Part shown: positions 21,104 through 44,515 of the stretch, in pieces
How positions within the stretch are numbered: position 1 is the first letter of the stretch
Layout: each line of letters opens with the position of its first letter
From: a virus
DNA length: 44,515 nucleotides
Reading direction: 5' to 3' (one strand)
Virus record (IMG/VR): IMGVR_UViG_3300048026_000781
Span: 1 to 44,515 of that record
Notes under the pieces: model-generated
Seen by the model: only the letters and a program-made list of their open reading frames with translations
What the model was told of the DNA's origin: nothing
The model's database searches: none
Program-made: the position numbers and the translations under genes

Positions 21104-21652
21104 TTATTTATTTTTTCCTAAACGTTTTTTTGCTTCATCGATGTCTAAATCAGCCATCTCATAATATCTATTTAGAATATTTCCCATATCCTCATATAAA
21201 GCATTTAATCTTTCATCCATTTGCCTAGCTTCAGTAGAAATCTTGTCAAATGATTTATCCAACTTCTCCAACTCACTCATATTTCTTTTGATAGTTACTT
21301 TATCAAACCAATCATCCGATTCTGAAAGAGTCAATGTTTTAGCTGCTTCTACGATACCTCCTAAAGTTTCTGCTATCTCAACGATATCAGATTTTCTTTG
21401 CATTTGTTCGTTGAAGCTCTTATATGTAGAAATTATTTCTAAGAAGTGTTTCTTTACTTCATTAGATAATGGTTTGTTAGCTTCTAACGATTCAGTCAAA
21501 CTGAATTTACCATCTACAATCTTTACATCGTTTATGTTTGTTTTACGGATATCATTATATCCCTTACTTACGCTCGTACCTTTCTTAGAATCTACTTTAA
21601 ATTCTATTGTGTTTTCGGTAACGTATTTGTATATGTCAAATCCTTTTTTCAT
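21104..21652 (-). CDS. Putative prohead core protein, 182 aa, coiled coil
   Basis: Unrecognised family. Its ATG shares a base with the stop of the protease gene, so translation is probably coupled. Residues about 60-180 are predominantly helical with heptad-like spacing (for example LEKLDKSFDKISTEARQMDERLNAL), which suggests a coiled coil. The N-terminus ends in YVTE|N, a possible prohead-protease site. T4 encodes small core proteins (gp67, gp68) beside its protease gene, and this could be a functional counterpart, though I see no sequence match. Confidence 0.7.
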   Translation of the reverse strand: MKKGFDIYKYVTENTIEFKVDSKKGTSVSKGYNDIRKTNINDVKIVDGKFSLTESLEANKPLSNEVKKHFLEIISTYKSFNEQMQRKSDIVEIAETLGGIVEAAKTLTLSESDDWFDKVTIKRNMSELEKLDKSFDKISTEARQMDERLNALYEDMGNILNRYYEMADLDIDEAKKRLGKNK

Positions 21653-22239
21653 TATGATAATTCCGTTATAATTTCTCTCATTAAATTTTCTGCTTTACAA
21701 AAATCTCCACAAACATCAGTACCAATTTTCTTTACTACCGATTCATTCATAGGAGTCATAAATGCACCATGTGTAGATGGGTTAGAAACAAAATCCCAAC
21801 CAATTAGTTCGAAATCTGAACCTACTTCTACTTTACCTTCTCCAATATTACTAACTGAACCCATACCTCTTGATGAGATACCTAATAGGATACCAGCTCT
21901 TAGTAATTCTTTTAAGATGTTACCAGACGGAGTTGGCAGTATTTCAACTGTACCTACTACATCTTCACCTTCCCAATGAATTTCTCTTATGTTATGAGAA
22001 ACATTCTTTAGGTTAATTACAGAAGAATCAGGGTGGTCTAATTCACCTAATGCTCTTCTCTCTTTAATAAGAGTTTGATAGTTGTTTACCTCTCTCTCTA
22101 ATATTTTTTTTGGGTACACTCTTCCATTTTGGTTTTCTGCACCAGAACGTTGAAGAACTCCCTTAACTAATGTTCTACCAGAAGCATCTTCATTAACGCT
22201 ACCTTTAAACAAATTAGTTTCTATAATTAAATTTTTCAT
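21652..22239 (-). CDS. 21: Prohead core protease, gp21-like
   Basis: A serine protease that matures the prohead by cutting scaffold, capsid and internal proteins after hydrophobic-x-Glu. Diagnostic features: the RVYP motif after the first strand pair (residues 40-43), catalytic His in GELDHPD (His69), catalytic Ser in GISSRGMGS (Ser122 or Ser123), and the following GWDFVSNPSTHGA segment. At 195 residues it is close to T4 gp21 (212). It lies upstream of scaffold and capsid in the same direction as in T4, though three other genes come between it and the terminator before gp22. Confidence 0.92.
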   Translation of the reverse strand: MKNLIIETNLFKGSVNEDASGRTLVKGVLQRSGAENQNGRVYPKKILEREVNNYQTLIKERRALGELDHPDSSVINLKNVSHNIREIHWEGEDVVGTVEILPTPSGNILKELLRAGILLGISSRGMGSVSNIGEGKVEVGSDFELIGWDFVSNPSTHGAFMTPMNESVVKKIGTDVCGDFCKAENLMREIITELS

Positions 22240-26474: not shown

Positions 26475-28055
26475 TTATAACCAATTTGTTAGGTCCTCAT
26501 GGGTACCATCACCGATATCCATTTTCCAAGGATTATCCTCGCTATCATTACCACCATATATACCAGTATAAGTATGAGATGAAATACTGTTAATTGCTTG
26601 TTTGGTTAAATCAACACCCTCTTGTCTTAATCTAAGAGCAGTATCCCTTACCCACAATCCTATTGCAAGAGCCATAACTAAATCATCATTATAACCCCTC
26701 ATAGCTTCAGCTCTACCATTATTCCATATAAAGGTAAACATTTCATCTATTGTTCTTACTGAACGTATTGTTATTGATTTGTCTCTAATGTATTCTTCTA
26801 ATTTGGAAATAATCAAAGGTCTTGTTCTTGAAGTAGTTGAAAATCCTGCTACTTGATTTCTATCTTGTGAACGATATTTATTACTAAACTGATTTCCAGC
26901 ATCTACATATTTTATATCCTTCTCAGTATAATACAAATTTCCATAATTTCTATCAATAACTTGTTGTATAGCAGCCCAACCAATATTTGCGTTTTCAATT
27001 ACTAATAACGCTTGATTATATTCAGTTGATAATGCTACTAAGAAGTTTCCAAAATCTTTAGTATCCAACTTACCCTTATATTCAGCTACTTGATTAGATG
27101 CAACTACATCTATTACATGAGCCGTAGAGAAATCCGAAGAATCACCTCGGGCAACATCCGCTACAACTATGTATGATTTACTATAATCAGCAAATTCCCA
27201 TTTCCAAAGATTACCATCGAATCCAGTTTTCTCAATAGGGTCTTGTACATAAGTTTCTTTGTAAAATTGAAGTATTTGTGGGTCAATAACCGAATCACCA
27301 GAAGATACAAAATCACAATCACATTCTTGTGCGGCTCCTTTTGGTCCTAATAATCTTTCTTGTTCATCTCTCCAACTTTGGTCTCTTTCTGGGTGAACTG
27401 TCCAATGTAATCTAATTGTATTGAAATCGTTTCTACCTTCTTCTGCACCTACCCAAGTTTTATGATACCAATTACCCACACCATTTGGAGTTGATAATAC
27501 AATTGCGTTACCCCCCGTAGATAATGTAGATTGTGCCGATACCCATATTTCTTCAATCTTATCAATAAATGCCGCTTCATCAAATACCAATAAAGATAGT
27601 GCTTCAGAACGTCCTGCATCTCCAGCAGCTGAAGTTGCCTTTATCTGAGAACCATTTGAGTATCTAAGAGATAGTTTGTTATCTTCTACTGTTTCTAATT
27701 TTAACCAAGATGGTAAATACTGATTCATCACCCTAACCTTCGTTACAAGGTTCTTAGCAACCTCTTGCTTAGTTGCTATAACCAAAACATTAAAGTCTTG
27801 ATTGAATAGCATTTTCCACAAAGAGAATCCTGCAGTTAATGTTGAGATACCAGTTTGCCTTGATTTTAGAATGATATTATATCTATGGTCTTTGAAGTCA
27901 ACTAATGTTTCTTCTTGAAATGGATATAATTGAAAAGGTATCTTACCCCTAACAGGGTGTTGAATCATACAATACTTTTTCATAAAATAAATTGGGTCAG
28001 AAGCACACTTCTGATATTCCAATTTTATTATATCTTTCAATGATTGCTTAGCCAT
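26475..28055 (-). CDS. 17: Terminase large subunit, gp17-like
   Basis: The ATP-driven DNA-packaging motor and headful nuclease. Walker A is SRQTGIST (residues 65-72), Walker B LLVFDE (155-160), with a coupling motif near STPNG (188-192). The RNase H-like nuclease has acidic residues in VVADVARGDSSDFS (Asp300), LLVIENANIGW (Glu354) and GYNDDLVMA (Asp457/458). At 526 residues it is somewhat shorter than T4 gp17 (610), mainly at the N-terminus. It starts 3 bp after the preceding gene. I could not identify the small terminase subunit (gp16) in the window. Confidence 0.96.
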   Translation of the reverse strand: MAKQSLKDIIKLEYQKCASDPIYFMKKYCMIQHPVRGKIPFQLYPFQEETLVDFKDHRYNIILKSRQTGISTLTAGFSLWKMLFNQDFNVLVIATKQEVAKNLVTKVRVMNQYLPSWLKLETVEDNKLSLRYSNGSQIKATSAAGDAGRSEALSLLVFDEAAFIDKIEEIWVSAQSTLSTGGNAIVLSTPNGVGNWYHKTWVGAEEGRNDFNTIRLHWTVHPERDQSWRDEQERLLGPKGAAQECDCDFVSSGDSVIDPQILQFYKETYVQDPIEKTGFDGNLWKWEFADYSKSYIVVADVARGDSSDFSTAHVIDVVASNQVAEYKGKLDTKDFGNFLVALSTEYNQALLVIENANIGWAAIQQVIDRNYGNLYYTEKDIKYVDAGNQFSNKYRSQDRNQVAGFSTTSRTRPLIISKLEEYIRDKSITIRSVRTIDEMFTFIWNNGRAEAMRGYNDDLVMALAIGLWVRDTALRLRQEGVDLTKQAINSISSHTYTGIYGGNDSEDNPWKMDIGDGTHEDLTNWL

Positions 28056-29450: not shown

Positions 29451-32400
29451 CTATTCGTAAAATAAACCGAGTATCTGATTGAGTGGAGCGAATGTTCCAG
29501 TAAGTTTGAAAGTCTTACCACCATACACAAATACGATACCCTCATTAGGAACTATCTTATCAGTACCACCAATAGCATTCAACCTTTGTAGTTCCATTTT
29601 AAGTTTGTTAATTTTCTTAACATCACCTGATTTCTTAACATCTTTGATTGTTTTATCCAATCTCTTTTTCATATCCCTAACTGCTTTATCAGGGTTAGCT
29701 GCTAATACTGAACTCATAAATGAAAGTATATCTGCTCCGATACCTAAGAAGATATCTTCGAATGGTCTAATATTATCTTTAGCCATTTTAGCGTGGTCAT
29801 TCTTATCAATTCCCTTTGCCCATTCCATTGTTTTTACATCAGATAAATTCTTCTTATCTAATCTAAATGATTTATCGTAGAATGCCCATCTCTTAACTAA
29901 TCCCATTAGAGTTTTGTTATCTAACTTAGTTGGAGATTTCTTATTTACAAAATCCATCCAAAAAGCTTGATGATAATCAGCGATTCCATCGTTATCTTTT
30001 AATTTGAATTTAGATTGTAATTTTGATATTTTAGAATTATAAGAACCTTTTAGTTTTCTTAAATCTTTTGATTTGGGTAATTGATTAATTGGAGGACCAG
30101 AAATAGTATATGCTGATTGTACATCAGCATTTACTTGTTTAATCATTCCTGCAAGTGTTCTTGCAGCTTCTTGATTTTCTCCAATGGCAATACCATCAGC
30201 GTTGAATTCCATAGTCCCATGAAATACGAGTAGTGCTTGGCCATAAGGTATTACATTTACTGAAGTTGGATAAATAACTTCTAAGTTCATAAAACATGCA
30301 CCACCTTTAAAGATTTTCTCTCTTTGTTTTTCAGAAAGTGATTTTATAGCTTTTGATAAATCATTCATAGCAAAGTTATATGCCTTTTCCAATTCACCTC
30401 TACCAGCAAACTTGATAGCTACACCTTTGATATCTAAAGCGTTTTCACCTTTGTTCTTTAAGTGTCCTTTGTTTCTCGCAGCAACTAATCTTCCATCTCT
30501 CCAACTAACTGCCAATGCTTGACCATCTGTCTTTTCTCTAGCTAAATCTAAGTTTCCTTCTAATGCTTTATTTACAATATCTTTAAGTTGTCCAAAAGTT
30601 AAGTTGATTTCAGTATCGAATGGATGATTCATATGTCCATATGCCCCACCTTCCATAATCAATCCTTCTTTAACATATTCTACCCACTCATCAGAACCAA
30701 CTGGTTTTAGTGAATCTTTTAACTTACTTACTTTTACATTTTTAGTTTTATATGTTACTTTTCTAAAAGTAGACTCTTTATCCCTACCTTTACCCTTACC
30801 ACGTATTCTATCTGCTTTTGGAAAATCCAATTGTTCAAATCCTAATTGGTCATACCAATATTCAGGTCTACCACTATTTTTACCTAACTTTCGTTTTTTC
30901 CCATCAGGTAAATACCCCGTTTCAGGTTCTCCAGAATCTACCTGAGATTCTTCAATACCACCACTTAAAGCATATGGTTCGTTATATTTCAACTTTTTCT
31001 TTTCTCTAACCGGCTCATACCCTTTTTTCTTAGTATCCTTTTCTTTGTTTTGATGACCTGGTGTTTTTTCATCATCATCAAAATCAATTGTATCTGGTTC
31101 TGCTATTGAACCTCTCTTTGCGTATGGTGAATATGCGTGATGTTTATTAAAATCTTTTTCAGCTTCAGATGATGGGTTTCCACTTTTTACAGGTTTCATC
31201 TTATCAGTAACTTTAGTTGGTAATGATTCGAATTTATATTTAGGGTCTGATGTTTTAAAATCATCTTTTCTCATTATGGTTTTAGCGATTACTTTATTCG
31301 CTTGTTTCATAAATGGAATATTGAGATTTGTTCTATTATCCTTTGCTACAACTTGATTGTACTGATTGAGAAAATTTACAAATTCTTTTTTATTCTTACC
31401 CAATCGTTTAAAGAACCCAATCAATTCTGCGTTTGAAACTTCTTTCCCATTTCTAGGGTCATTTAACCTATCGAAGAAATGTTTACCAGTAAGAACTACA
31501 TCAACTGGATTTAGTTGTTTATCTGCAAATTTATCAATCTTTTTTAAATCACCCATTGGGATTTCGTTGATTGATGATTCATTAGCTTTTGTTTTTGAAT
31601 AAGTTGGTTTTTTACCTTTTGTTTTATTACCACCCTTTTTAGAATCACCAGCTTTCTTTTGGTCAGCTCGTTTTCTATTAACAAATGATGCTCTACCTTT
31701 AGGTCCTAACTTAGCTGCTTTCTCTTTTGATAAACAAGCTGCATAAGCATCTCCCTTTTCTCCATCACCACACTTACCTAACTTCTTACCAGTGGAACTG
31801 TATCTATCCCAACCACCACCTTTGGTAGAACCAGTCTTTCCTTTACCAAACCACTTTCGTAAATCCTCAGTTAGCTCTTCTTTAGTTAAATCTTCTCTTA
31901 GTGGTTTCATACCATTTGCAACCCTAACTTTATTTAACTTCTTAATAATATCTTTTTGTTTTTGTGATTTTGGCATTGCCTTTAATGCTTTAGTAGTTAA
32001 TTGATAAATTAAAGTTCTATCAGCAGAAGATAATTCTTCATTAACACGTTTCCAATCTGCTAAAGCCTCTTTATCGTATTCTTTTTTCTGAGAATCCCAT
32101 CCACAATTATGACAGAAATACTTCTCACTATCATCAGATTCGATTTCCCAAGAATGATTACATTTTTCACAACTAATCTCTTCTCCCGAAAATTCAACTA
32201 AAACATCCTCTTCTATAATTCTAACTTTTAAAAGTGGTTTACCATTTATAGTAATATCACCTTTTTCGTTTTTTCCAATTGTTTTAACTACAATACGTTT
32301 ATTTTTAAACTTACCACCTAATACAGTATCACCTATATTAATTGGAATCGTAATATCTTCTTTTACAATATTTGTATTTGGGTCTTTTACTTTCTTAGTT

Positions 32401-33431
32401 TTCTTAGCCTCAACTTCATCTTCTTTATTATCTAATGAATCTAATACAGAATATCCAACTAACGTAGCTAATCTAGTAACATGCTTAAACCATAATCTAT
32501 ATGCCTGTGAGCCATAGAAATCTTTTTGGTTAGTTGCAGTTGTTTTACCAATTACACCTGCTGGAAATGGAGTTACTGCTTTTACAGGTCCATTCGGATA
32601 AATTGGATGTGGGTCTATATCAGTATCATCATCACTCATAATTTGTGATAAAACAGTATATCCTATTTTTTCTGCTCTTTTTTGAGAAACTCTATCAAAT
32701 GAACTGAATGATGGGAATAAGTAATTAGGTCCATCATCAACTTCTTGAGCACCACGTATTTGAGATGCTTCTTTGATTAAATCAATATTTTGAATTAACC
32801 AATCTTCTATAATTTCATTAGATATATTGATTTCCTCATTTAAAGTATTTGTTATAAAATCAAATACACTTTTATTAAATTTTGGATATGCTCTTTTTGA
32901 AAAGAAATCTTTCTTATCTTCATCTGAACCTGATTTTAATCCATTACGAACTTCAGTTCCACTTATAGGATTAGATTGTTGGGGAGCGATATAAACATAT
33001 CCCTTATCTTCATATCCTTCGAAATCTAAGTTATCTTTATAAGGTGTAAAGAACTTACCACCTAATCTACTTGCATCCTTCTTACCAACAACTGTGATAA
33101 ATGCCGTAGTATCTTTATCGAATTTTTTAAGTACCTCAGTTGGTACATATGGATTTTTTACTTGAACAATTACGTTTTTTGGAATACCAAACATTTTGTT
33201 CATAATCATCACCTTTTCTCTAAAGTTAAATGGTGATTTGTTATTATCGGTTTTATTTGATGTACCAATGTACACATTTTTCTTACCGAACTTATTTACT
33301 AAATGCTTGTAGGTAGCATAATGACCCTTATGAAAAGGTTGAAAGCGGCCAGCGTAAACTACAACTTTGTTGTCTACACTGTCCGCTTCCAATAATATAC
33401 TCTCTACTAAAAAGTTAGATAAATCATTCAT
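29451..33431 (-). CDS. Multidomain enzyme fusion: NMNAT-like + zinc ribbon + ligase-like nucleotidyltransferase
   Basis: A 1326-residue fusion. Residues 21-200: HxGH-type nucleotidyltransferase, with GRFQPFHKGH (HxGH at 34-37) and ISGTEVR (156-162), as in NMNAT/NadR adenylyltransferases. Residues 420-445: zinc ribbon with Cys421, 424, 440, 443. Residues 530-610: Lys/Gly-rich GGGWDRYSSTGKKLGKC motif. Residues 645-730: HFFDRLNDPRNGKEV region common in marine phages. Residues 925-1326: covalent-nucleotidyltransferase-like fold with KTDG (967-970, candidate adenylated Lys), FMNLEV (1047), EGIVF (1297) and FKLTG (1308), the motif order of ATP-dependent ligases. The N-terminus MNDLSNFLVE|S resembles T4 capsid-targeting peptides, and IME|G at 925-928 sits right before the ligase-like part. 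It could be an internal head protein cut into enzymes, but that is inference. Confidence 0.85.
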   Translation of the reverse strand: MNDLSNFLVESILLEADSVDNKVVVYAGRFQPFHKGHYATYKHLVNKFGKKNVYIGTSNKTDNNKSPFNFREKVMIMNKMFGIPKNVIVQVKNPYVPTEVLKKFDKDTTAFITVVGKKDASRLGGKFFTPYKDNLDFEGYEDKGYVYIAPQQSNPISGTEVRNGLKSGSDEDKKDFFSKRAYPKFNKSVFDFITNTLNEEINISNEIIEDWLIQNIDLIKEASQIRGAQEVDDGPNYLFPSFSSFDRVSQKRAEKIGYTVLSQIMSDDDTDIDPHPIYPNGPVKAVTPFPAGVIGKTTATNQKDFYGSQAYRLWFKHVTRLATLVGYSVLDSLDNKEDEVEAKKTKKVKDPNTNIVKEDITIPINIGDTVLGGKFKNKRIVVKTIGKNEKGDITINGKPLLKVRIIEEDVLVEFSGEEISCEKCNHSWEIESDDSEKYFCHNCGWDSQKKEYDKEALADWKRVNEELSSADRTLIYQLTTKALKAMPKSQKQKDIIKKLNKVRVANGMKPLREDLTKEELTEDLRKWFGKGKTGSTKGGGWDRYSSTGKKLGKCGDGEKGDAYAACLSKEKAAKLGPKGRASFVNRKRADQKKAGDSKKGGNKTKGKKPTYSKTKANESSINEIPMGDLKKIDKFADKQLNPVDVVLTGKHFFDRLNDPRNGKEVSNAELIGFFKRLGKNKKEFVNFLNQYNQVVAKDNRTNLNIPFMKQANKVIAKTIMRKDDFKTSDPKYKFESLPTKVTDKMKPVKSGNPSSEAEKDFNKHHAYSPYAKRGSIAEPDTIDFDDDEKTPGHQNKEKDTKKKGYEPVREKKKLKYNEPYALSGGIEESQVDSGEPETGYLPDGKKRKLGKNSGRPEYWYDQLGFEQLDFPKADRIRGKGKGRDKESTFRKVTYKTKNVKVSKLKDSLKPVGSDEWVEYVKEGLIMEGGAYGHMNHPFDTEINLTFGQLKDIVNKALEGNLDLAREKTDGQALAVSWRDGRLVAARNKGHLKNKGENALDIKGVAIKFAGRGELEKAYNFAMNDLSKAIKSLSEKQREKIFKGGACFMNLEVIYPTSVNVIPYGQALLVFHGTMEFNADGIAIGENQEAARTLAGMIKQVNADVQSAYTISGPPINQLPKSKDLRKLKGSYNSKISKLQSKFKLKDNDGIADYHQAFWMDFVNKKSPTKLDNKTLMGLVKRWAFYDKSFRLDKKNLSDVKTMEWAKGIDKNDHAKMAKDNIRPFEDIFLGIGADILSFMSSVLAANPDKAVRDMKKRLDKTIKDVKKSGDVKKINKLKMELQRLNAIGGTDKIVPNEGIVFVYGGKTFKLTGTFAPLNQILGLFYE

Positions 33432-33473: not shown

Positions 33474-33830
33474 TTATTCTTTTACAACTTCCATTTGTTG
33501 AGCTTGTTCTGCCATCTTTTCTTTTACACTTGGGTCAAATGTAATTGTACCCTTTTGTAAATCAAGCTGTCCTCTTGGGAAATCCTTTTCAAGATCTGCA
33601 ACTAATCCCCTTAGAGCTTCGTTCTTTTCTTTAAAATCGGTTTCTGCTTGTTCTAAACCTTCTTCAAGTTTAACCATTTCATCTTCCAACTCTTTTCTTC
33701 TTAAATAAAGTTGTCCGAACACATTCACCATCTGAGTGATTTCATCATTAGATTGTTTGATTGGATTTATTACATCCTCTCCTAGTTCTCTTGTAACTAA
33801 TTCGATTTTTTGAATTTCTTCGTTTGCCAT
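33474..33830 (-). CDS. Small coiled-coil protein, paralogue of 38387-38659
   Basis: 118 residues, mostly a charged helix with heptad spacing (QLYLRRKELEDEMVKLEEGL), then a short beta-like ending FPRGQLDLQKGTITFDP. The related gene at 38387-38659 has the same layout and ending (YPNGQIDLEAGTISF), so the two are paralogues. Function unknown: a trimeric coiled-coil connector or chaperone would fit, but nothing shows it. The gene lies directly downstream of the sugar-kinase gene, with its own candidate promoter motif 34 bp upstream. Confidence 0.75.
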   Translation of the reverse strand: MANEEIQKIELVTRELGEDVINPIKQSNDEITQMVNVFGQLYLRRKELEDEMVKLEEGLEQAETDFKEKNEALRGLVADLEKDFPRGQLDLQKGTITFDPSVKEKMAEQAQQMEVVKE

Positions 33831-33880: not shown

Positions 33881-34627
33881 TTATGTTTTCGTAATAATTG
33901 TTACTCCTCGTTTTTGTACTACTTGCGAAGCGCAATCATTTCCGAATGTTATTGATTCATTTACATTAGAGCTTTCCAAATACTTTATAGTGAATCCTGC
34001 TACAAAAGTATCACCTGCTCCAGATATATCCATAATCTCAACTTGTTTAGTTGGATACATAACACCATTATGTTTACATCCATCTTTATCAAGTGTGATT
34101 ATAAGCTTTTCAACTATCCACTCATTATTATTAATGAATGATTCGTTATTTAAATATTCAGTTCTATTTAATTTAATAAATTTTAAATCCCTACACCATT
34201 CACCTAATTTCTTTTTAGTATCACATATTGTGTTTGGGTGATTATATGCTATATGAGCGATATCATCATCATTTAAAAATCCTTTGTTATAATCTGATAT
34301 AACTACCATATCATAATCCCAATAATTATTTGGTAATTTACTTCTATCAAGCCTATCTACGTTATCACCTTCATCGACTCTTAACAATAATGTATTTGAT
34401 GATTCATGTACATAACGTGTCTTTGTTATAGTTGATGTATGTGTTATTATATCAACATCAACACCCAACGATTCCAAATTGGATTGTACGTTCAGTGCCA
34501 TTCCACCATTATATCGTTCATTAATTGGATTAAAAACAGGAGCAGGTCCTTCGGGTGAAAGACGTGGAGTATTTCCATAGATAAAAATATCCATACAACT
34601 CTCTCCTATTAAAAGTACTTTACTCAT
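33881..34627 (-). CDS. PfkB-family sugar kinase, like heptose-7-phosphate kinase (HldE domain I)
   Basis: It probably phosphorylates C1 of a sugar phosphate as HldE/RfaE domain I does on D-glycero-D-manno-heptose 7-phosphate. Features: GESCMDIFIYGNTPRLSPEGPAPVF in two parts (residues 8-32), where HldE has GDxMLDxYxxGxxxRISPEAPVPV; YNGGMALNVQSNLESLG (39-55); SDYNKGFL (111-118, HldE DYxKGxL); and catalytic DISGAGDTF (200-208, Asp206). At 248 residues it is shorter than the HldE kinase domain (about 320), with trimmed loops. Overlaps the nucleotidyltransferase gene by 8 bp, mirroring the two halves of HldE as separate genes. The substrate is inferred; a related sugar phosphate is possible. Confidence 0.82.
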   Translation of the reverse strand: MSKVLLIGESCMDIFIYGNTPRLSPEGPAPVFNPINERYNGGMALNVQSNLESLGVDVDIITHTSTITKTRYVHESSNTLLLRVDEGDNVDRLDRSKLPNNYWDYDMVVISDYNKGFLNDDDIAHIAYNHPNTICDTKKKLGEWCRDLKFIKLNRTEYLNNESFINNNEWIVEKLIITLDKDGCKHNGVMYPTKQVEIMDISGAGDTFVAGFTIKYLESSNVNESITFGNDCASQVVQKRGVTIITKT

Positions 34628-35012
34628 TTGTTAATATTTTCGTTGTACTAAAATCTTCCATTCTATTAAAGTAAACCATTGATTTACTATACGATTCACC
34701 AACTATATTTTTATCTTTATAATCAGAGCCAATAACAAAAACATCTGGTTGATATCGTTTAATAGCCTCTTCCAACATTAACTCAGAATCGAATATTATA
34801 ACTTTACTCACTCCTTTAATTCGTTCTAAATTATACTTACGTTCTTCCTCTGAATGAAATGGTCTATCATCTCCCTTTAGTTCTTTTACTCGTTTATCAG
34901 AATCAATTCCAATAACAACTAACTCACCAAATGTAGATGCGAACTCAATCATTTTAAAATGAGCATGATGTAAAACATCGAAACACCCATTCATCCAAAC
35001 TTTCTTCATCAT
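34620..35012 (-). CDS. Sugar nucleotidyltransferase, like HldE domain II (ADP-heptose synthase)
   Basis: Likely joins the kinase product to a nucleotide; HldE domain II uses heptose 1-phosphate and ATP to give ADP-heptose. Seen: WMNGCFDVLHHAHFKMI (residues 6-22), IDSDKRVKELKGDDRPF (about 37-53), PDVFVIGSDYKDKNIVGE (about 88-105) and FSTTKIL near the C-terminus, all matching the RfaE-II layout. One oddity: the HxGH nucleotide-binding motif reads HHAH, with Ala for Gly. At 130 residues it is the usual single-domain length. Overlaps the heptosyltransferase gene by 4 bp and the kinase gene by 8 bp. A glycerol-3-phosphate or other cytidylyltransferase is the alternative, less likely beside an HldE-like kinase. 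Confidence 0.82.
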   Translation of the reverse strand: MMKKVWMNGCFDVLHHAHFKMIEFASTFGELVVIGIDSDKRVKELKGDDRPFHSEEERKYNLERIKGVSKVIIFDSELMLEEAIKRYQPDVFVIGSDYKDKNIVGESYSKSMVYFNRMEDFSTTKILTNE

Positions 35013-36157
35013 AGAAATTTTTCTAATTCTTTTATTACACTTTCCGATGTGATACCTTTAGTACATTCAAATTGTCTATTTGTACCCTTATGGTCTGGAC
35101 ACCAATTCCAATCACCTGCATCTAATTTTAATCTATTGAAACATCCACCACACTTATCATTAGGTGGTGTGATTCTAACACACTCTTTCATTTCAGCCCA
35201 ATCATATGAGAATCCACTTATCAAAACTGTCTTTGTTCCCAATGCCCAACTTAACCAACTTAATCCACTACCAATACCAATAAATGCTTTTGATTTTCTC
35301 ATTTCATCCATAACCGATTCTAATGGTCCTTCTGGGTGTTTTATAATACCTGTTGGGTGTTTGTTTCCCATATAGTTATCCCCTTCCTTAGATAGTAGTT
35401 TAACTGTATATCCTTTATTGTTTAACCAATCTACTACATCTTGCCAACCATTTGGATTATTCCAATATTTAGATTGAGCAGTTCCGTGTATTGCTATTGT
35501 GATTAGTTTATTATCTTTAGTAACTTTCGATGTTGGTAATAATGGCTTTATTTCTTTATATTCTAACCCCAATATATCAGAACCCATTTTTTGCATTGTT
35601 TGAGTTTTGAAATCGTTTGGATTTTTTAATTCATTTACACTACCATCATCATTATAGAACAAACCTACATTATACATTGCATATAGATTTTGTACAGTAG
35701 AACCCGGTTTAACAAATTCAAAGTGAGGATATTGTTCCTCAAACATATTATTGTGAAATGTTGAAACAATTAGTTCACAATTATGCTTCTTTCTGAATTC
35801 TTCAAAATATGGAAACCATGCTAATGTATCTCCCAAAGCTTTTGAACCCATTGATATAAAAACTCTCTTACCAAATGGATTAAAATCATGTTCATAAAAT
35901 ACATCATCATTTCTAAGTACTCTAACTTTCCAATCTATACAATATTCTATATTAGATTTGGCCCAATTATTATTTCCAATTTTAGTTTCAAATCGTATTG
36001 TGTTTGTAGATTTATCTATAAATTGTACTTTATATTCTTCATTAATTGTTCCTGTTATTTCAACGAAAGGTCCATTTACAAAATGAGTAAATACTTTATT
36101 TTGTACATCTACAATATTATTTTTATTTTTTGTTAAGTTGGTGTATATCATTTCCAA
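35009..36157 (-). CDS. Protein O-heptosyltransferase, TibC/Aah (BAHT) type
   Basis: This family transfers heptose from ADP-heptose to Ser on strand-loop-strand repeats of autotransporter adhesins such as TibA and AIDA-I. Seen: N-terminal beta domain (residues about 25-95), then HDFNPFGKRVFISMGSKALGD (90-110; Asp110 in the conserved GDT is the expected catalytic position), WFPYFEEFRKKHNCELI, DILGLEYKEIKP (194-205), HGTAQSKYWN (224-233), and IGIGSGLSWLSWALGTKTV (293-311). The C-terminal four-Cys finger (Cys336, 339, 353, 365 in KCGGCF...GDWNWCP...RQFECTK) is the family's iron-binding signature. Length 382, usual for the family. No autotransporter is encoded here, so the natural substrate would be a phage beta-structured protein or a host surface protein. 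Confidence 0.87.
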   Translation of the reverse strand: MEMIYTNLTKNKNNIVDVQNKVFTHFVNGPFVEITGTINEEYKVQFIDKSTNTIRFETKIGNNNWAKSNIEYCIDWKVRVLRNDDVFYEHDFNPFGKRVFISMGSKALGDTLAWFPYFEEFRKKHNCELIVSTFHNNMFEEQYPHFEFVKPGSTVQNLYAMYNVGLFYNDDGSVNELKNPNDFKTQTMQKMGSDILGLEYKEIKPLLPTSKVTKDNKLITIAIHGTAQSKYWNNPNGWQDVVDWLNNKGYTVKLLSKEGDNYMGNKHPTGIIKHPEGPLESVMDEMRKSKAFIGIGSGLSWLSWALGTKTVLISGFSYDWAEMKECVRITPPNDKCGGCFNRLKLDAGDWNWCPDHKGTNRQFECTKGITSESVIKELEKFL

Positions 36158-38316
36158 GTCTTATTTGTTAAATCCAATAATGAAAATCCTTCGGCTTGAT
36201 TTGAATACATTTTATTTGTTGTATATCTAAGTCTTGGATGATGATAGAATACATGATTATACCATAAATCAGCAACATCCCATTCACAATCTTTTATTCT
36301 ATCCATATACCATTGTTTATCTCTATTTGGTATCAGATAAGCATGTGCTAAGTCTTGGTTATGAGCTGTTTTACTAAATAACTCATCTATGTTTTCTTTT
36401 GAATTAGATGGATTGTTAGCAAATGAAATAAATGGAACATTATCCCTTTCTGAGATAAAACATGCTTTATGTACTATTTCAACAAACTCCATCAACCCAC
36501 TATCAATATAAGCATCAGCTTCAAAAATTAAAGTATAATCGTAATCAGGATTTATAGTTTCCAATGCAAATCGGTGAGCCATATAGCAACCATAATGTCC
36601 ACCAGTTATCCAACCCAATCCAGCACCAGGTGAAAGTTCTCCAGGTGTATTTGTTGGTGATATGTGTTGAGGTCTCCTACAATGTTCTACTGGAGGGAAA
36701 TCGGTATAAGGTGTATTTACAATTGCCTCATAATCCATCCCGTATAATTCCAATTGTTTTAATGATTCTTGACTTATACGTTCTCTTAAATCATCTGGTC
36801 GAGTCATTAAATGTTTAATTTGTATTTTTGGCTTCTTACGAACAAAACTATGATTATCAATTAAAAATTGCTTATAAAAGAAATCATTTGGAGCGTAGGT
36901 AGAACCTTCAAAAACAAAGTAATCATCACCGGTTATGAATCCACCCGGCTTTACTTTATGATACCATCGTTTGATATCACTCATTACCGAATCATAACCA
37001 TGACCCGCATCAATCATTATAAAATCAATAGAATCATTTTGGAATTGATTTGATGCATTTTCTGAGGTATCCTTTATAGCGTTGAATGTACCAAAGTTAT
37101 CACTCATTATTGTATTTTCTACAAACTCACCATAAATATCCCCACCATAAGAATCAACTATATTTATATGTAATTTTTCATCATAACTACCTTTCCAAGT
37201 ATCAACAACAGTAAAATTTACATTCTTCTTAGATTCTCTTATTTTTGTTGCCATATGATTGGATGATTTTCCTAACCAACTACCAACTTCTACAAATACC
37301 TCACCACCCTTAGCGTTCCTTACAAATCTATCATATAAACTTTCATAGGAAAACCAACCTGGTATTTCATTAAATTGAGGTTCTAATAATTCTATTATTG
37401 TTTTTTTAGTATTTAGAATATCATCATCAATATAAGTAACCAATTCATTAGAATCATATGTATCTAAATAGGTATGTAATTTTCTGAATATACATTGTAA
37501 TCCATATCCCAATGCTTCTTTAATTGATAATGGATTTAACTCCAACTTAGAACTAAAGTAAAACATATCAGATGCTTTATAGAATTTATCCACATCACTA
37601 CGTTCACCCCAAACTATACAATTATCAGGCTTATGCTCCATTATAGGTCCCCAATATGATTCAAAGTTCATAGCTTGGTTTCCAACAAAATGGAATTTGA
37701 TTTTATACTTTTCTAAAATTCTAGCTACTTTAAATATTTCACCTTGATTCTTACCTTGCGTAAATAACCCAACCATAAGAACATGCTTCCATTCAGTATC
37801 AAATCCTAACTCATTTTGAATTTCTATTTTGTTGAATGTTTGCTTCTCTATTGGATATTCCCATACCTTAGTATCAACACCCAAATGTTCAAACTTTCGT
37901 CTACTCCATTCGGATACTAAAACATATCTATCGGGTTGATAACGAATTTCGTCTGGATTTGTTGCAGAACCATGCGTTGATGCTACAATATTATACTTAC
38001 GTGATTTTACCCATAACTTATCTAATATATCGTAAGATAAAAAGTGTTCTGGTATTTCAGTAAAATGTATGATGTTTGGTTTGATAGATTTTATCAAATC
38101 AACAATTTCAGATTTATCATCTCCCAATGTATGTAGTTTAACCAAATTATTAATTTGGTCTTTTTGAACTACAAATACTCCACCACTGTGGTTGTTTACC
38201 TCAATTACTTCAATATCAAAATCATCTCTAAAGATTTCGATTTGCTTTAATAGATATTGTGGCATTCCACCAGTAGATAGGTGTGATGATATATATAACA
38301 GTTTCTTCTTTGACAT
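36148..38316 (-). CDS. Glycosyltransferase-methyltransferase-glycosyltransferase fusion, 722 aa
   Basis: Three domains. Residues 1-312: GT-B glycosyltransferase like GT4, with SSHLSTGGMPQYLL near the start, the MVGLFTQGKNQ linker into the second half (181-191), and an EX7E donor motif in SSKLELNPLSIKEALGYG (255-272). Residues 320-505: class I SAM methyltransferase (FVEVGSWLGKSS, 341-352; FIMIDAGHGYDSV, 432-444). Residues 510-722: a GT25-like transferase, with GLGWITGGHYGCYMAHRFA (566-584) and the acidic LIFEADAYID (596-605). GT25 enzymes add hexoses to LPS or collagen-like proteins. It leads the operon and overlaps the heptosyltransferase by 10 bp, so it may extend or decorate the heptose. 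Domain order is clear, substrates unknown. Confidence 0.83.
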   Translation of the reverse strand: MSKKKLLYISSHLSTGGMPQYLLKQIEIFRDDFDIEVIEVNNHSGGVFVVQKDQINNLVKLHTLGDDKSEIVDLIKSIKPNIIHFTEIPEHFLSYDILDKLWVKSRKYNIVASTHGSATNPDEIRYQPDRYVLVSEWSRRKFEHLGVDTKVWEYPIEKQTFNKIEIQNELGFDTEWKHVLMVGLFTQGKNQGEIFKVARILEKYKIKFHFVGNQAMNFESYWGPIMEHKPDNCIVWGERSDVDKFYKASDMFYFSSKLELNPLSIKEALGYGLQCIFRKLHTYLDTYDSNELVTYIDDDILNTKKTIIELLEPQFNEIPGWFSYESLYDRFVRNAKGGEVFVEVGSWLGKSSNHMATKIRESKKNVNFTVVDTWKGSYDEKLHINIVDSYGGDIYGEFVENTIMSDNFGTFNAIKDTSENASNQFQNDSIDFIMIDAGHGYDSVMSDIKRWYHKVKPGGFITGDDYFVFEGSTYAPNDFFYKQFLIDNHSFVRKKPKIQIKHLMTRPDDLRERISQESLKQLELYGMDYEAIVNTPYTDFPPVEHCRRPQHISPTNTPGELSPGAGLGWITGGHYGCYMAHRFALETINPDYDYTLIFEADAYIDSGLMEFVEIVHKACFISERDNVPFISFANNPSNSKENIDELFSKTAHNQDLAHAYLIPNRDKQWYMDRIKDCEWDVADLWYNHVFYHHPRLRYTTNKMYSNQAEGFSLLDLTNKTWK

Positions 38317-38386: not shown

Positions 38387-38659
38387 TTAGAAAGAAATAG
38401 TTCCAGCTTCTAAATCAATTTGTCCATTTGGATATTTCTTATCCAACTCAGCCAATTCACTATCCATTGTACTCAATGAAGTATCCAATTTATTACCAAA
38501 CTCAATTTCCTTTTCATTTAATTCTTTGAGTTGTTTTTCAATTTCTCTTCTTCTAACAGCAACTTGACCTAATGCAATTACCATACTATTTTGCTCATCT
38601 TGAATTGATTTTAGTTTATCAATTACTGATTTATCTAATGCTTCTGTAGTTTGTTCCAT
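38387..38659 (-). CDS. Small coiled-coil protein, paralogue of 33474-33830
   Basis: 90 residues: charged heptad-type helix (VAVRRREIEKQLKELNEKEI, residues about 34-53) and a conserved ending KKYPNGQIDLEAGTISF. This aligns with the 118-residue protein at 33474-33830 (RRKELEDEM...FPRGQLDLQKGTITF), which has about 20 extra C-terminal residues. It follows the tail-fibre gene by 53 bp, with CTTATATATA 18 bp upstream, a weak form of the phage promoter motif. Function unknown; a fibre-associated chaperone or connector is a positional guess. Confidence 0.72.
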   Translation of the reverse strand: MEQTTEALDKSVIDKLKSIQDEQNSMVIALGQVAVRRREIEKQLKELNEKEIEFGNKLDTSLSTMDSELAELDKKYPNGQIDLEAGTISF

Positions 38660-38712: not shown

Positions 38713-41700
38713 TTATTTAGAACCACTTATTTGTGCTTCCAACTCCAATACCTTATCACTCAGTTCTTGAATTGCTTTAATCATTGGTGAAATTAATTCA
38801 CTATAAGCCATATTCCAATTTTGATTATCTTTTTGTACAATTGAACTCGATTCTTTTGGTATAATCTCATCCACTTCTTGTGCAATTAATCCATAGTGAT
38901 ATGGTGAATTATTATCATCGTTTAACCAATGATATTTAACTGGATTTAATCTATTAATAAATGATAATCCTAAATCGGATTCTAAAATATTTTTCTTTAG
39001 ATTTGCATCAGATGCTGTATTTAAAGCATTAACAGAATAAATAGTTGTCCATCTATTTGATGAACCACCTAATGTGTATTTTTCGGTTATTGTTGGTATT
39101 ATAGCCCCATTAGTTGATATTGCAGTTTGAAATGTATTGAAAAGTGGTGTTCCTTGGAAGAATGCTGTTCCACCTTGAACTCTAAATAATTCACCACCTC
39201 CAAAGTTCTTTGCTAATCTCTTTGCTTGAACAAATGTATCAGCATTTGTTACTACTTGAATACCACCCGCTTGTATTTCTACAAAGTTTGAAGGAAGTTC
39301 AAATGATAATGATGTATCTAAACTACCACCAAATGCTTGTAAAACACCAGTTGTAGATGTAGGATTATTTGTGTTATTTGCATATTGTACTGTTGCTGAT
39401 ACATATGAATTTGTAGTGGTACCATTAGATGAAGTATTCTGTCTATATCCAGCAGTTGTACCTATTTGAACAGAATATCGTAGTGAAGCTGCGGTTGTTG
39501 CAGTTGTACAATTTATAGTTACACTTTTATTAGGTTGAGCCAAAGATACTCCATCATTACCTTGCGCACCATTTTGAGTTGTTGAAACAAAAGTCCAACC
39601 AGTTGTTGTTACGTTATGTGATAAGATATCATTCGATATGTAGTTATATACACCAGCAACTGAGAATGTATATACATCAGCTCCTTCTAATAACTCAATC
39701 TTATTAACCAATTGTAAAGAAATAGAATCTCCATCTTTTACATATACTTTACTTTCACCTTCAACTAATTCAGTTGTTTTTATCTCTTCGTTATTATCTA
39801 ACCAAAATCCATGCGAATCTGATACTTCAATAACTTTATCACCTATTGTAAGTTTATATATTTCAGTTGTTGTTCTTCTTTTAATTGCATCTATGGTAAA
39901 TTCACCAAACTTATCTATTCCCGTATGTGAATCCAATTTATCATTCCAGTTCCAAGATAATATCTTATCTCCTATTTTAGCATCTTTAGCTAAAATATAA
40001 GAACCATCAGATAATGTAATTTTAGTATTTCCAACTACGGATGAAATTTCTGAAGAAAGACTTCCTCCTCCACCTCCACCACTTGGTGGTACATAAGTAC
40101 CAGTATAGTAGTTACCTACACCATCAGTATCACTTCTTGCTTCAGAAGTTTGTGCTATTTTAGTTCTACCAATAACTGCATTATTATCATTAGTATCGAC
40201 AACCTCTACATACAAATATGCTATTTGTCTTATTGCAGTTGGACCTGATGTATTACCATGTGTTTGCCCAGTGAATGTTGGTAAATAATTTGGATATGAA
40301 GTTGTTTGTGATATTCTTGTTGTAGGTGACTTTAATGTCAACATTGGTACATCTAATGTTAATGAAATATCCCCAACACTAACAGCAGTTGTAGCCGTTC
40401 CAGCATTTGTATTACCACCAACACTAAACCCACTAAATGCAAAAGTTGCACTATTAATTTGCTGTGCACTAAGACTAGATGGACTATCGGGAGTTGCATG
40501 TGTGGTGTTTGAAAATTCCATATCAAAACCAGCACTACCCGCCGTATCAGTTAAGTTTGCTTTAGTTCCAATAACTACTTTTTTCTCACTACCATCAAAA
40601 AATTGAAGTTCAGGTATATTTGGTTCAAATACTATTTCTGAATTATCATCTCTTAATGCCTTTGTATCTACATCAATTACCCAATCTCCAATTCTACCAC
40701 TATCAGCGTTTATAATACCACCAATAGAAGCATTTGATGCGGAAACGTTTCCATTTACATCAACACTAAATTTTGCACCTTCACCATCTAAAGGTACACT
40801 TATTGAACCCCCTACAATAGCCGATTGTTCAATTGTACCACCATTTAAATCACCACTAAATTGAACAAATTCACCATTGTATCTTAAAAAGTCACCAGAT
40901 GGACTTCTTAATGAAAAGTGTGGTATTTCAGATGCTGATGGGAATCCTAAAAATGCTCCCCTATTATCATAACCAGCAGATGGTTGTCCAATTGATATAA
41001 ATGGTTTATTAGTACCAGTTGATGAACCAGATGTTGATAATCGTATAGCATCTCCAGTTATAATACGTTCGGATAACGAACCTGCAGTTACAGTACCAAC
41101 ACTCGTAGCAGTTAAATCTTCAGTCCCTTTATGTATAGTATATAAGATAAATTGACGGGTGGTTGGATTATCACCATCCTCAGATAAAACCCAGTCTACA
41201 CCAGTTTGGTTGAATATTTCAGTTTCTATTTGAGAGTCTGTACCTGTATCTAAAAAGTTATCCCCACTTATGTTTGCTAATTTTATTGCAACCGATTCGG
41301 AGATGTATGTACCCACATTTACGTTTTTAGCATATACATATGCATTTGTATGTGGAGCAAAATCAGGTGTACCTAACCAATTTACATCAGAAAATGAAGC
41401 TGTATTAGAAACAGTCATCCAACTTAGTGGTGTAGTTGTATTAGCTTCAAATGCTTGGATATAATTTGTTCCATCTGCCCATATTATATCAGCCTTTGTA
41501 GAACCCTTACCACCTGCACTTAAATCATATGATGATGTTAAGTATGTTTGAAAATCAACAGATGATGAATCTGCGTATATAGCAGGTCCCTCTATTGTAA
41601 ATACTGCAGCATCACTAGCACCATTGGGAGAAGTCCCAGTGTAATCCATTCCATTTAAAATATGAGTAGTTGTAATTTGACCATATACAGTTACAGTAGA

Positions 41701-44515
41701 ACCACTACCAAATGGGTCAGGAGTTCTACTGAATACACGTTGCATAGCTGAAGGTGGATTTCCACCAGAATTACCCATTGAGTAGTAAGGATATTCAGAA
41801 GGAATATCACCAAAGCTAGGAGTAGGTGCGTGATAAAGCCATTGACTTAGACCACTATAAATTATCGATGAAGTAAAATAAAATTCTGCATCTATTAAAT
41901 CACCAATAGAATAATCAGTTTCATAAAATAAACCACTTTTATCAACTTCCCATCCACCAATATTTGTTTTAACATTATCACCAGCTAAAGATAAACTTGC
42001 AGTTCCTTCATCAAATCCTATAAAGATACCATCACTTTCAAAACCTTGTGGGTTTTGTCCTATTGATATGAATGGATTTGCGTTTGAATTTCCAGCATCT
42101 GCATTTAATGCTATAACAGGAGATGAACCAGAGGCACCTACATTAATTGTTTGGTCTGCATATACATCAGTTGCAAAAAGAATATCAGTTGCTACAGAAG
42201 TAAATTCTGCTCCAAATGAATCCCAATAAGTAGTATAACTACCACCAGTTACAGGTGTAGAAGCGGCATCTGATGTATATGTTTGTTTAGCCATATAATA
42301 GGAACCATCAGTTCCCTTTACAACATCAATTCTTGCAGTTGTTTTATAATACTCTACACCAACTGCCCATTCACCTCTATATACTATACCAGCACTTGTA
42401 CCTGGTGCTCCAGGACTTCCATCGGTACCATCGGTTCCATCAGTACCATCAGTACCATCGGTTCTTTGTGCATAAACCACAGGAGTTGACCAAGTAGTTG
42501 TTGCTGCAGTTTCAGTAGGTGCTCCACTAAATAAACCATTTGCTGCATAAACCTCATCACCATTAGATACTAAAGCTGGTACAGTTGTAGACCAGTTTGT
42601 TGGTGGAGTTAATGTAGATGTTGTAAAGTTGTAACTACCACCAGTATTTCCAGCACTACTATTTAATCGATAAATGGTAGTTTCTGCAACAGCAGTACCC
42701 TCTACCTGATATGGTGTTCCCCAAGTAAAGTTGGTAGCCCCAACTGCCTTTGTACCTTGAACTGCCCATAATAAATTAGTACCAGATGGTGGAGAATCAC
42801 TCCAACCAGTTGGTACACCAGATGATGGAGATGGAGTTGTTGGTTGTGTTGCGTTTCGAATGAATATGATGTTTACACTTGCACCAGTCTCTCCATCGGT
42901 ACCATCAGTACCAGCTTTTGTTTTAGTTAAAGTTTGTGTGGTATCTGATGTAAACGCAACTCCTGAATTCCGTTTACCACTAATCGTATAGGTTATTACT
43001 ACTTGGTCGGTAGTCATATCAGTAGCATCACCAACAGTTGCTGTATCCGTACCATTACCAGTTATACCACCCAACGTTGCCGTACCTGTATTGCTTACTG
43101 TTATGTTATATTCACCATCACCAGGAGAAGCCGTTACATACGATAACGAACCCGTTCCTTCAAATACTTTAATAGTAGTACCACTATTAGTCAACACTGG
43201 ATTTGAACCATCTGAATCGGATGCAACTGAATGTGCTTGGTTTGTATTTATTACAGTTATTGCATCAATTCCATCTGCACCATCTGAAATAATGTAATAA
43301 GTTTCAGTAATTGTATTTGTTTGTCCAGTAGCAGGGTCAGTAAATACTGCGGTTAATACAGTATCTTTTGTTACTACTGCTGTATTAATCAATGGAATTG
43401 ATGTACCATCTCCATCATCTGCAGTAATTGTAATATTTGTAGTATCACCGAATGGTGTTGAAACTTGCATCGAATCTACACCACCACTAAACGATGGAGT
43501 TATTAATACACTCTGAGTATATTCAGTTCCAGATGTATCGAAGAACGATGCAGTTGCCGATAACCCATTTGGTAAAAATGAATTATCCGATGGATTTCTA
43601 GTTGATTTTAAGTTTGATGAAATAAATGAACCTCCACCTAAACCATCAGTTACATCTAATAATGCAATTGTATCTAAAACGCTATCATCGGATGAATCTC
43701 TTAACTCTAATATTAGAGTACCATTAATAGCTGCTGCTCCAATTGTTGGATTATATTCATCACCAGTAATACCACTCATCGATGCGTTTAACAATGATGA
43801 ATCATCTTTGTAAAGTTTTATATCACCAGATGATATATCACTTAATCCACTTACTGATGATTCTTGAACTTGTAATACAATATTACCACTATTATTTTTT
43901 ATTTGAGTACCACCTGATGTAGGGGTAATCATATATTGTGGAGTAGTATCTGAACCGGGTTTAACAGAAACTATCGTTATAGTATCACTAGCTACTTCAC
44001 TTTGATTTCCCTCAGATACACCAACTCTAATTGTTTGTGGAGTTGCAGAATATGTAGATGGAATTGTCCAACTAAATGTATCTTGATTAGCCGAATCACC
44101 ATCTATGTAAGTAGTTTCATCATTAAAACCATCTCCCGTAAACTTAAAGTATGCATCGGTAAAGTTTTGTGAATCAGCCGTTAACGTTATTGTACCACTT
44201 GGCGATGGGGTTGTACCATCAGCCGCATATGATATTACGTTAGCATCTGCACTAAGTTGTACTACAAATGCAGGTGTACCGGCTACTCCCTCTTTTGCTT
44301 TAGTTAATGTTTGTGTAGTATCTATTACAAAATCATCACCATTAAATCTCTTACCTACTATTTCATAATTGATTGAAACTGCATCAGTACCAGTTACCAT
44401 TAAAGAGTGGTCACCAACTAATGCATCATTTGTGGAATCTGATATAGAACCTATTGTAATTGTTGAAGATGGTGATTGTGATGTATTAATTTTCCATGTA
44501 CCTGCCGAAGTACCA
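38713..44515 (-). CDS. Tail-fibre/adhesin with Ig-like repeats, Hint domain and S74 chaperone (5' end outside window)
   Basis: Open through the right window edge: 38 more codons precede the Met at 44400, so that Met is probably internal. The visible 1,933 residues start with Thr/Ser-rich Ig-like repeats (repeated SGKRxxG...TQTLTKxKxG unit), then a collagen-like GTDGTDGTDGTDGSPGAPG stretch (near 42390-42460) and receptor-binding-type beta segments. A Gly6 linker leads into a Hint domain (40041-39613). The C-terminal 98 residues form an S74 intramolecular chaperone: SDANLKKN holds the self-cleavage Ser and Lys, and YGLIAQEVDEIIP is typical. S74 domains fold fibre trimers and then cut themselves off. 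This protein likely binds the host surface and may be a substrate of the glycosylation operon downstream. Confidence 0.9.
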   Translation of the reverse strand, partial: GTSAGTWKINTSQSPSSTITIGSISDSTNDALVGDHSLMVTGTDAVSINYEIVGKRFNGDDFVIDTTQTLTKAKEGVAGTPAFVVQLSADANVISYAADGTTPSPSGTITLTADSQNFTDAYFKFTGDGFNDETTYIDGDSANQDTFSWTIPSTYSATPQTIRVGVSEGNQSEVASDTITIVSVKPGSDTTPQYMITPTSGGTQIKNNSGNIVLQVQESSVSGLSDISSGDIKLYKDDSSLLNASMSGITGDEYNPTIGAAAINGTLILELRDSSDDSVLDTIALLDVTDGLGGGSFISSNLKSTRNPSDNSFLPNGLSATASFFDTSGTEYTQSVLITPSFSGGVDSMQVSTPFGDTTNITITADDGDGTSIPLINTAVVTKDTVLTAVFTDPATGQTNTITETYYIISDGADGIDAITVINTNQAHSVASDSDGSNPVLTNSGTTIKVFEGTGSLSYVTASPGDGEYNITVSNTGTATLGGITGNGTDTATVGDATDMTTDQVVITYTISGKRNSGVAFTSDTTQTLTKTKAGTDGTDGETGASVNIIFIRNATQPTTPSPSSGVPTGWSDSPPSGTNLLWAVQGTKAVGATNFTWGTPYQVEGTAVAETTIYRLNSSAGNTGGSYNFTTSTLTPPTNWSTTVPALVSNGDEVYAANGLFSGAPTETAATTTWSTPVVYAQRTDGTDGTDGTDGTDGSPGAPGTSAGIVYRGEWAVGVEYYKTTARIDVVKGTDGSYYMAKQTYTSDAASTPVTGGSYTTYWDSFGAEFTSVATDILFATDVYADQTINVGASGSSPVIALNADAGNSNANPFISIGQNPQGFESDGIFIGFDEGTASLSLAGDNVKTNIGGWEVDKSGLFYETDYSIGDLIDAEFYFTSSIIYSGLSQWLYHAPTPSFGDIPSEYPYYSMGNSGGNPPSAMQRVFSRTPDPFGSGSTVTVYGQITTTHILNGMDYTGTSPNGASDAAVFTIEGPAIYADSSSVDFQTYLTSSYDLSAGGKGSTKADIIWADGTNYIQAFEANTTTPLSWMTVSNTASFSDVNWLGTPDFAPHTNAYVYAKNVNVGTYISESVAIKLANISGDNFLDTGTDSQIETEIFNQTGVDWVLSEDGDNPTTRQFILYTIHKGTEDLTATSVGTVTAGSLSERIITGDAIRLSTSGSSTGTNKPFISIGQPSAGYDNRGAFLGFPSASEIPHFSLRSPSGDFLRYNGEFVQFSGDLNGGTIEQSAIVGGSISVPLDGEGAKFSVDVNGNVSASNASIGGIINADSGRIGDWVIDVDTKALRDDNSEIVFEPNIPELQFFDGSEKKVVIGTKANLTDTAGSAGFDMEFSNTTHATPDSPSSLSAQQINSATFAFSGFSVGGNTNAGTATTAVSVGDISLTLDVPMLTLKSPTTRISQTTSYPNYLPTFTGQTHGNTSGPTAIRQIAYLYVEVVDTNDNNAVIGRTKIAQTSEARSDTDGVGNYYTGTYVPPSGGGGGGSLSSEISSVVGNTKITLSDGSYILAKDAKIGDKILSWNWNDKLDSHTGIDKFGEFTIDAIKRRTTTEIYKLTIGDKVIEVSDSHGFWLDNNEEIKTTELVEGESKVYVKDGDSISLQLVNKIELLEGADVYTFSVAGVYNYISNDILSHNVTTTGWTFVSTTQNGAQGNDGVSLAQPNKSVTINCTTATTAASLRYSVQIGTTAGYRQNTSSNGTTTNSYVSATVQYANNTNNPTSTTGVLQAFGGSLDTSLSFELPSNFVEIQAGGIQVVTNADTFVQAKRLAKNFGGGELFRVQGGTAFFQGTPLFNTFQTAISTNGAIIPTITEKYTLGGSSNRWTTIYSVNALNTASDANLKKNILESDLGLSFINRLNPVKYHWLNDDNNSPYHYGLIAQEVDEIIPKESSSIVQKDNQNWNMAYSELISPMIKAIQELSDKVLELEAQISGSK
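38716..39009 (-). other. Peptidase S74 (endosialidase-type) chaperone domain
   Basis: Self-cleavage is expected between Ser (39012-39010) and Asp (39009-39007) in ASDANLKKN, with Lys five residues later completing the dyad. YGLIAQEV and the C-terminal coiled coil (ELSDKVLELEAQI) are typical. It releases a 98-residue peptide after fibre folding. Confidence 0.85.
39613..40041 (-). other. Hint (intein-like) domain inside the tail fibre
   Basis: 143 residues with block A VVGNTKITLSDG preceded by Ser at the nucleophile position, DAKIGDKILSW, block B VSDSHGF with the conserved His, and a C-terminus VYTFSVAG...ISNDILSHN ending in His-Asn. There is no homing-endonuclease insert. The residue after Asn is Val, not Cys/Ser/Thr, so ordinary splicing should fail; cleavage-type activity, as in bacterial intein-like domains, is possible. 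Confidence 0.82.

Follow-up and report, generated by a model that had tools for sequence, protein, structure and literature searches.

What does a phage do with genes that would make and transfer a heptose? The question is raised by a 44,515-base fragment of a large uncultured phage, IMG/VR record IMGVR_UViG_3300048026_000781 (the whole fragment is hereafter the window), which carries four tightly overlapping genes at 33881-38316 on the minus strand. A first-pass annotation had called these a protein-heptosylation cassette with four overlapping genes; inspection of the open reading frames (ORFs) found all four, and because the nearest relatives repeat the same gene order, the cassette is far beyond chance. 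We consider it likely that this is phage-encoded protein O-glycosylation, in which a TibC-type enzyme would heptosylate Gly-Thr/Ser-Ser repeat fibres encoded elsewhere in the genome. The cassette consists of:

36148..38316, minus strand: fusion of GT4, Methyltransf_24 and GT25-like domains, 722 amino acids (Pfam and predicted fold).
35009..36151, minus strand: predicted TibC/Aah-family (BAHT) O-heptosyltransferase, 380 amino acids from ATG 36151 (TIGR04414).
34620..35012, minus strand: HldE-II-like heptose-1-phosphate nucleotidyltransferase (HENase), with Arg at STT-5 (TIGR02199, PHROG 7878 and alignment).
33881..34627, minus strand: HldE-I/HldA-like heptose-7-phosphate kinase, 248 amino acids, compact PfkB fold with SGAGDT (TIGR02198 and model).

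To which family does the transferase belong? Searched as 35009-36157, it scores 274.7 bits against TIGR04414 (hepto_Aah_TibC; E 1e-81), exceeding the curated cut-off of 200, and only 25 bits against the lipopolysaccharide (LPS) heptosyltransferase I profile. TibC (4rap/4rb4) is its sole match in a phmmer search of the PDB (E 2e-48). TibC modifies serine using ADP-D,D-heptose, and its residues D110, T226, K230, R286 and W305 and Cys 339/342/358/370 are important by mutagenesis or structure (PMC4358343). The first five align with D110, T226, K230, R283 and W301 of the window gene (382-residue numbering) and the four cysteines with C336/C339/C353/C365; all of these catalytic, contact and iron-finger residues, R283 excepted, are invariant across 24 phage sequences. 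Judged by profile and alignment, the window transferase is a member of the TibC/Aah (BAHT) family with an intact four-Cys finger, as the first-pass annotation had it, and iron binding is predicted. Distant phage and non-Acetobacter bacterial relatives score 262-320 bits against the same profile. An autotransporter partner gene, usual for BAHT enzymes but not strictly defining, is missing; the neighbours are tail fibres, glycosyltransferases or, in bacteria, short GTS-repeat proteins. The TTG start at 36157 (382 amino acids) is probably wrong, and we take the ATG at 36151, two codons on, as the likely start because homologues begin there; this ATG overlaps the stop of the upstream gene as ATGA.

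The same scores bear on a different explanation, that the cassette changes host LPS or capsule (superinfection exclusion) and that the TibC-like enzyme is an ordinary GT9 LPS heptosyltransferase. Pelagimyophage rfaE and glycosyltransferases and the glycosyltransferase clusters of jumbo cyanophages have been read in this way (PMC7029224, PMC7824862), and polysaccharide synthesis is the usual role of GT4 enzymes. However, the LPS profile scores far lower than the protein-modifying TIGR04414, on which ground we rejected an ordinary LPS heptosyltransferase; the BAHT-specific iron-finger cysteines are invariant; and a change of LPS or capsule leaves the link to Gly-Thr/Ser-Ser proteins, described below, unexplained. 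We therefore regard this explanation as quite unlikely.

Could the cassette also supply the sugar donor? An HldE-like kinase and nucleotidyltransferase had been annotated, and the HldE domains are indeed the best families for both. The kinase matches rfaE_dom_I (TIGR02198) with E 2e-34 and 119 bits, below the cut-off of 345, the next kinase family standing at 3e-12; the top PDB matches to its predicted fold (predicted local distance difference test, pLDDT, 90) are all HldA (E 3e-17), with the next fold at 2e-12. The nucleotidyltransferase, assigned to PHROG 7878, matches rfaE_dom_II (TIGR02199) with E 5e-28 and 97.7 bits, below the cut-off of 181.5, and its next single-function family is glycerol-3-phosphate cytidylyltransferase at 1e-17. 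By alignment it has an Arg five residues ahead of STT, which the account in PMC11461863 links to ATP/CTP/UTP promiscuity and which points to CTP or to more than one nucleotide as substrate, so the donor may be ADP-heptose or another nucleoside diphosphate-heptose (NDP-heptose). The gmhA isomerase is absent from the 253-271 kb relatives in the window's clade and was found in 1 of 16 TibC records (343 kb), and the phosphatase family TIGR01656, found in 0 of 14 TibC records, is missing from the same relatives. Since the long relatives lack both, supply of these steps by the host, as first proposed, is plausible. The 343-kb contig (L083, from the contig of L066) carries a phage gmhA-like isomerase (E 1.9e-56) along with TibC and an HldE-II-like gene.

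The fusion protein comprises a GT4 domain (~1-311; PF00534, 1e-10), a Methyltransf_24/TylF-like domain (~342-466; PF13578, 9e-17) and a C-terminal GT-A/GT25-like domain (~480-722) with a weak match to PF01755 (0.003). For the model of this last domain (pLDDT only 66), the best Foldseek matches are the collagen galactosyltransferase COLGALT1, mimivirus R655 and the PBCV-1 capsid glycosyltransferase, the latter two from eukaryotic viruses (E 2e-4 to 7e-4), a weak likeness in fold with a template modelling score of ~0.43. A sequence search of the PDB using the fusion protein gave no match.

How widespread is this gene set? Relatives are encoded in at least 122 IMG/VR stretches, 80 of which were kept, and in four INPHARED records including the isolated Microcystis phage Mel-JY01. 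In the window's clade the order fibre, coiled coil, fusion, TibC, HldE-II, HldE-I, coiled coil recurs. Both donor genes are lacking from some members of this clade (L012, L013, L014, L015 and L025), and Mel-JY01 gave no HldE-II match; the donor genes are an optional part of the cassette. In distant phages the TibC domain mostly lies within one polypeptide of 700-1226 amino acids bearing GT4 or methyltransferase domains. In a tree of 70 sequences the phage genes form many deep lineages; those of Methylobacter and Polaromonas fall among them, and the Acetobacter BAHT genes stand apart. The finding concerns a broad family, more than one phage. Some phages have a second, shorter TibC-like copy beside the first (L330/L344 in G079; L338/L345/L346 in G070), and one TibC-like piece in G070 carries an internal stop.

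Which protein would receive the sugar? Two tail fibres are encoded in the window:

38713..44514, minus strand: tail fibre with an S74 chaperone, at least 1933 amino acids, open at the window edge (PF13884, 5e-14).
3-12131, minus strand: tail fibre, 4043 amino acids, structural module.

Far richer candidates are found elsewhere. In distant phages, the tail fibres that adjoin or lie near TibC have hundreds of Gly-(Ser/Thr)-(Ser/Asn) triplets, and 3717 pooled fibre triplets include 1261 GTS, 1205 GSS and 527 GTN. Ser and Thr reach 51% of the protein. At the X position the pooled tracts have 51% Thr, 39% Ser and only ~2% Pro, the residue that marks collagen-like Gly-X-Y; with almost no proline, and with GPX-repeat contigs lacking TibC, true collagen was rejected. 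The window's own clade encodes fibre ORFs of at least 1510, 2798 and 3163 amino acids with Gly-Thr-Ser repeats, 468-1197 residues of which lie in tracts; the repeat ORFs are at ~36-44 kb in one record (TibC at 92 kb) and at 135-139 kb in another (TibC at ~87 kb).

The first-pass annotation had favoured heptosylation of the phage's own fibre next to the cassette, and the enzyme assignment behind this idea holds. That the adjacent S74 fibre or the 4043-amino-acid fibre is heptosylated, rather than the repeat fibres, would fit the adjacency seen in the window and its clade and the 24% Ser/Thr of the S74 fibre. The S74 fibre has only ~11 Gly-X-Y triplets, against the hundreds in the recurrent partner fibres, and two short GTD-type tracts, GTDGTDGETGAS and GTDGTDGTDGTDGSPGAPGTS, whereas the constant partner across distant lineages is the Gly-Thr/Ser-Ser repeat. 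With few repeats here and a repeat link that holds elsewhere, we rejected the S74 fibre as sole acceptor; it is a possible acceptor that we do not favour, both kinds of fibre could be modified, and modification of the window's fibres in place of the repeat fibres is unlikely. As a separate observation, the S74 fibre has a Hint/intein-like insert at about residues 1480-1600 of a 1895-residue ORF, before the S74 region; its Pfam Intein_splicing match (E 0.002) is below cut-off, and it ends in SHN with no obvious N-terminal Cys.

How tightly are TibC and the repeats linked? Repeats are present in 19 of 21 TibC records, 16 by a five-fold repeat DNA pattern and 3 by a wider, Asn-allowing GTN-type pattern, and the reversed five-fold pattern, used as a control, matched none of the 21. 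The two records without repeats are fragments, 18 and 27 kb long. In the reverse direction, 23 of 50 contigs picked by repeat DNA alone encode TibC (E 6e-63 or better); these contigs are at least 26 kb, only 1 of the 23 was previously known through the TibC search, and the counts ignore relatedness. TibC was found in none of 39 contigs with collagen-like GPX repeats (Fisher p 1.6e-7 for 23/50 vs 0/39) and in none of 25 picked by a random 15-mer, in searches run alongside a positive control that was detected. By length of true repeat in the stretch examined, TibC is present in 22 of 39 contigs with 60 residues or more and in 1 of 11 with less. The repeat is within 10 kb of TibC in 15 of 22 such contigs, where 7.0 are expected from uniform placement of one cluster (P ~1e-4).

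The link extends to bacteria. Bacterial TibC genes close to the phage group, from two Methylobacter, Polaromonas and one gammaproteobacterium, adjoin short secreted GTS/GSS-repeat proteins; in the nearest, those of Methylobacter and Polaromonas, the neighbours are GTSGTSGTA proteins and not autotransporters. This pair of TibC and a small repeat protein is undescribed. Secreted or lipoprotein-like GTS/GSS proteins stand by stand-alone TibC genes at 5929-6780 in L347, 5941-6780 in L348, 8133-8441 (minus strand) in L349 and 8291-8875 (minus strand) in L353. In Mel-JY01 (L082, PP395634.1), a GSSGTSGTR-repeat ORF of 1016 amino acids or more, missing from the annotation, lies at 2-3049 on the plus strand and runs over the record start; it is followed closely by a structural gene and then by the TibC fusion. 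The deposited annotation calls other hypothetical genes, partly antisense, over this ORF.

Might the TibC-repeat link be a lineage effect within one broad group of large aquatic phages? The co-occurrence counts do ignore contig relatedness. Yet the tree has many deep, separate TibC lineages; adjacency in distant phages, Methylobacter, Polaromonas and a gammaproteobacterium is unexplained by phage ancestry; and proximity within contigs is above expectation. We find a lineage effect very unlikely.

Several observations weigh against heptosylation of the repeat fibres by the TibC-type enzyme. Heptosylation of these virions is a prediction from genes, and the known BAHT acceptors are beta-helical autotransporters, unlike Gly-Thr-Ser repeats. 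The equivalent of TibC Arg286, an adenine contact, is not kept beyond the window's clade, where a different donor nucleotide may therefore be used. The clade's repeat fibres are encoded beyond the reach of the window, at ~45-50 kb from the cassette; 17 of the 39 long-repeat contigs have no TibC on the fragment; and large phage lineages with common ancestry make the contig counts not fully independent. Enrichment of the HENase is mild, 10 of 22 TibC phages vs 4 of 23 control records, and the HENase also occurs without TibC; we dropped this weak co-occurrence as support.

What might the cassette do in the infected cell and on the virion? In the mechanism that we infer, the kinase and nucleotidyltransferase would convert host-derived heptose phosphate to NDP-heptose, and the TibC-type enzyme would attach the heptose to serine residues within the Gly-Thr/Ser-Ser triplets of giant tail fibres. 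A probable role for the fusion is to lengthen or methylate the glycan, or to act at additional sites. The virion could then benefit from a stiff, protease-resistant, sugar-coated rod. A stable collagen helix is not expected from a proline-free triplet repeat, and it is a speculation of ours that glycosylation could stabilise one. More broadly, and tentatively, in phages and some bacteria alike TibC-family enzymes may coat Gly-Thr/Ser-Ser proteins with heptose, as a widespread and unrecognised class of protein O-glycosylation, with the product possibly a proline-free, glycan-stabilised collagen-like rod that forms the shaft of giant phage fibres.

The remaining annotated features of the window are the flanks of the cassette and a structural module:

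38387..38659, minus strand: small coiled-coil protein on the fibre side of the cassette (~36% identity to 33474-33830).
33474..33830, minus strand: small coiled-coil protein on the other flank, paralogue of 38387-38659.
29451-33431, minus strand: 1326-amino-acid protein with an N-terminal NMN/cytidylyltransferase-like domain.
26475-28055, minus strand: terminase, structural module.
24193-25965, minus strand: portal, structural module.
21652-22239, minus strand: head protease, structural module.
15758-17377, minus strand: major capsid protein, structural module.

The paralogous coiled-coil genes bracket the cassette in close relatives too, suggesting duplication or insertion of the cassette between the copies. 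The C-terminal part of the 29451-33431 product is highly conserved, with a KTDG motif reminiscent of nucleic-acid ligases; in relatives both ends are conserved and the middle is variable.

How does the cassette compare with what is known? Literature searches on phage TibC, phage heptosylation and GTSGTSGTS repeats, whose coverage left out most subscription journals, found no description, and no paper that brings repeat tail fibres in phages together with heptose donor genes and a TibC-type enzyme. The first-pass annotation knew of no described phage system of this kind, which agrees with our searches as to heptosylation, but phage-encoded glycosylation of virions was already known from mycobacteriophages. 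The Gly-Thr-Ser and Gly-Ser-Ser fibres are probably sugar-coated by an undescribed phage-encoded system. This would give a specific, testable enzyme-acceptor pair for large-phage glycosyltransferase genes, commonly classed as modifiers of LPS or DNA, and the isolated phage Mel-JY01 makes the idea immediately testable. It also offers a possible function for the viral NDP-heptose enzymes, previously left without an assigned role, and extends the enzyme family of bacterial autotransporter adhesins to viral fibres and a new repeat acceptor.

In mycobacteriophages, glycosylation of virion proteins by phage-encoded glycosyltransferases is established (Freeman 2023, as cited in PMC12619734 and PMC12363180); as described there, capsid and tail tube are modified by other glycosyltransferases, whereas the present case, predicted from genes, would involve repeat tail fibres, heptose donor genes and an enzyme of the TibC family. 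HldE-type enzymes from viruses have been shown to produce ADP-heptose in vitro (Tang 2024 Science, as reported in PMC11461863). According to that report no viral phosphatase was found, a likeness to the window's clade, whose records lack TIGR01656, and no viral use of NDP-heptose was identified, whereas here a predicted, dedicated protein heptosyltransferase lies in the same cluster. The closest known system is the BAHT family of TibC and Aah (PMC4358343, TIGR04414), with which the window enzyme shares the family, the catalytic Asp, the ADP-heptose contacts and the four-Cys iron finger. Unlike those enzymes, the window family is phage-encoded and often fused behind GT4 or methyltransferase domains, its partner is a Gly-Thr/Ser-Ser repeat fibre and no autotransporter, and in the window's clade the donor-synthesis genes lie in the same cluster. 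The enzyme family is already known from bacteria; the setting and the probable acceptor are new.

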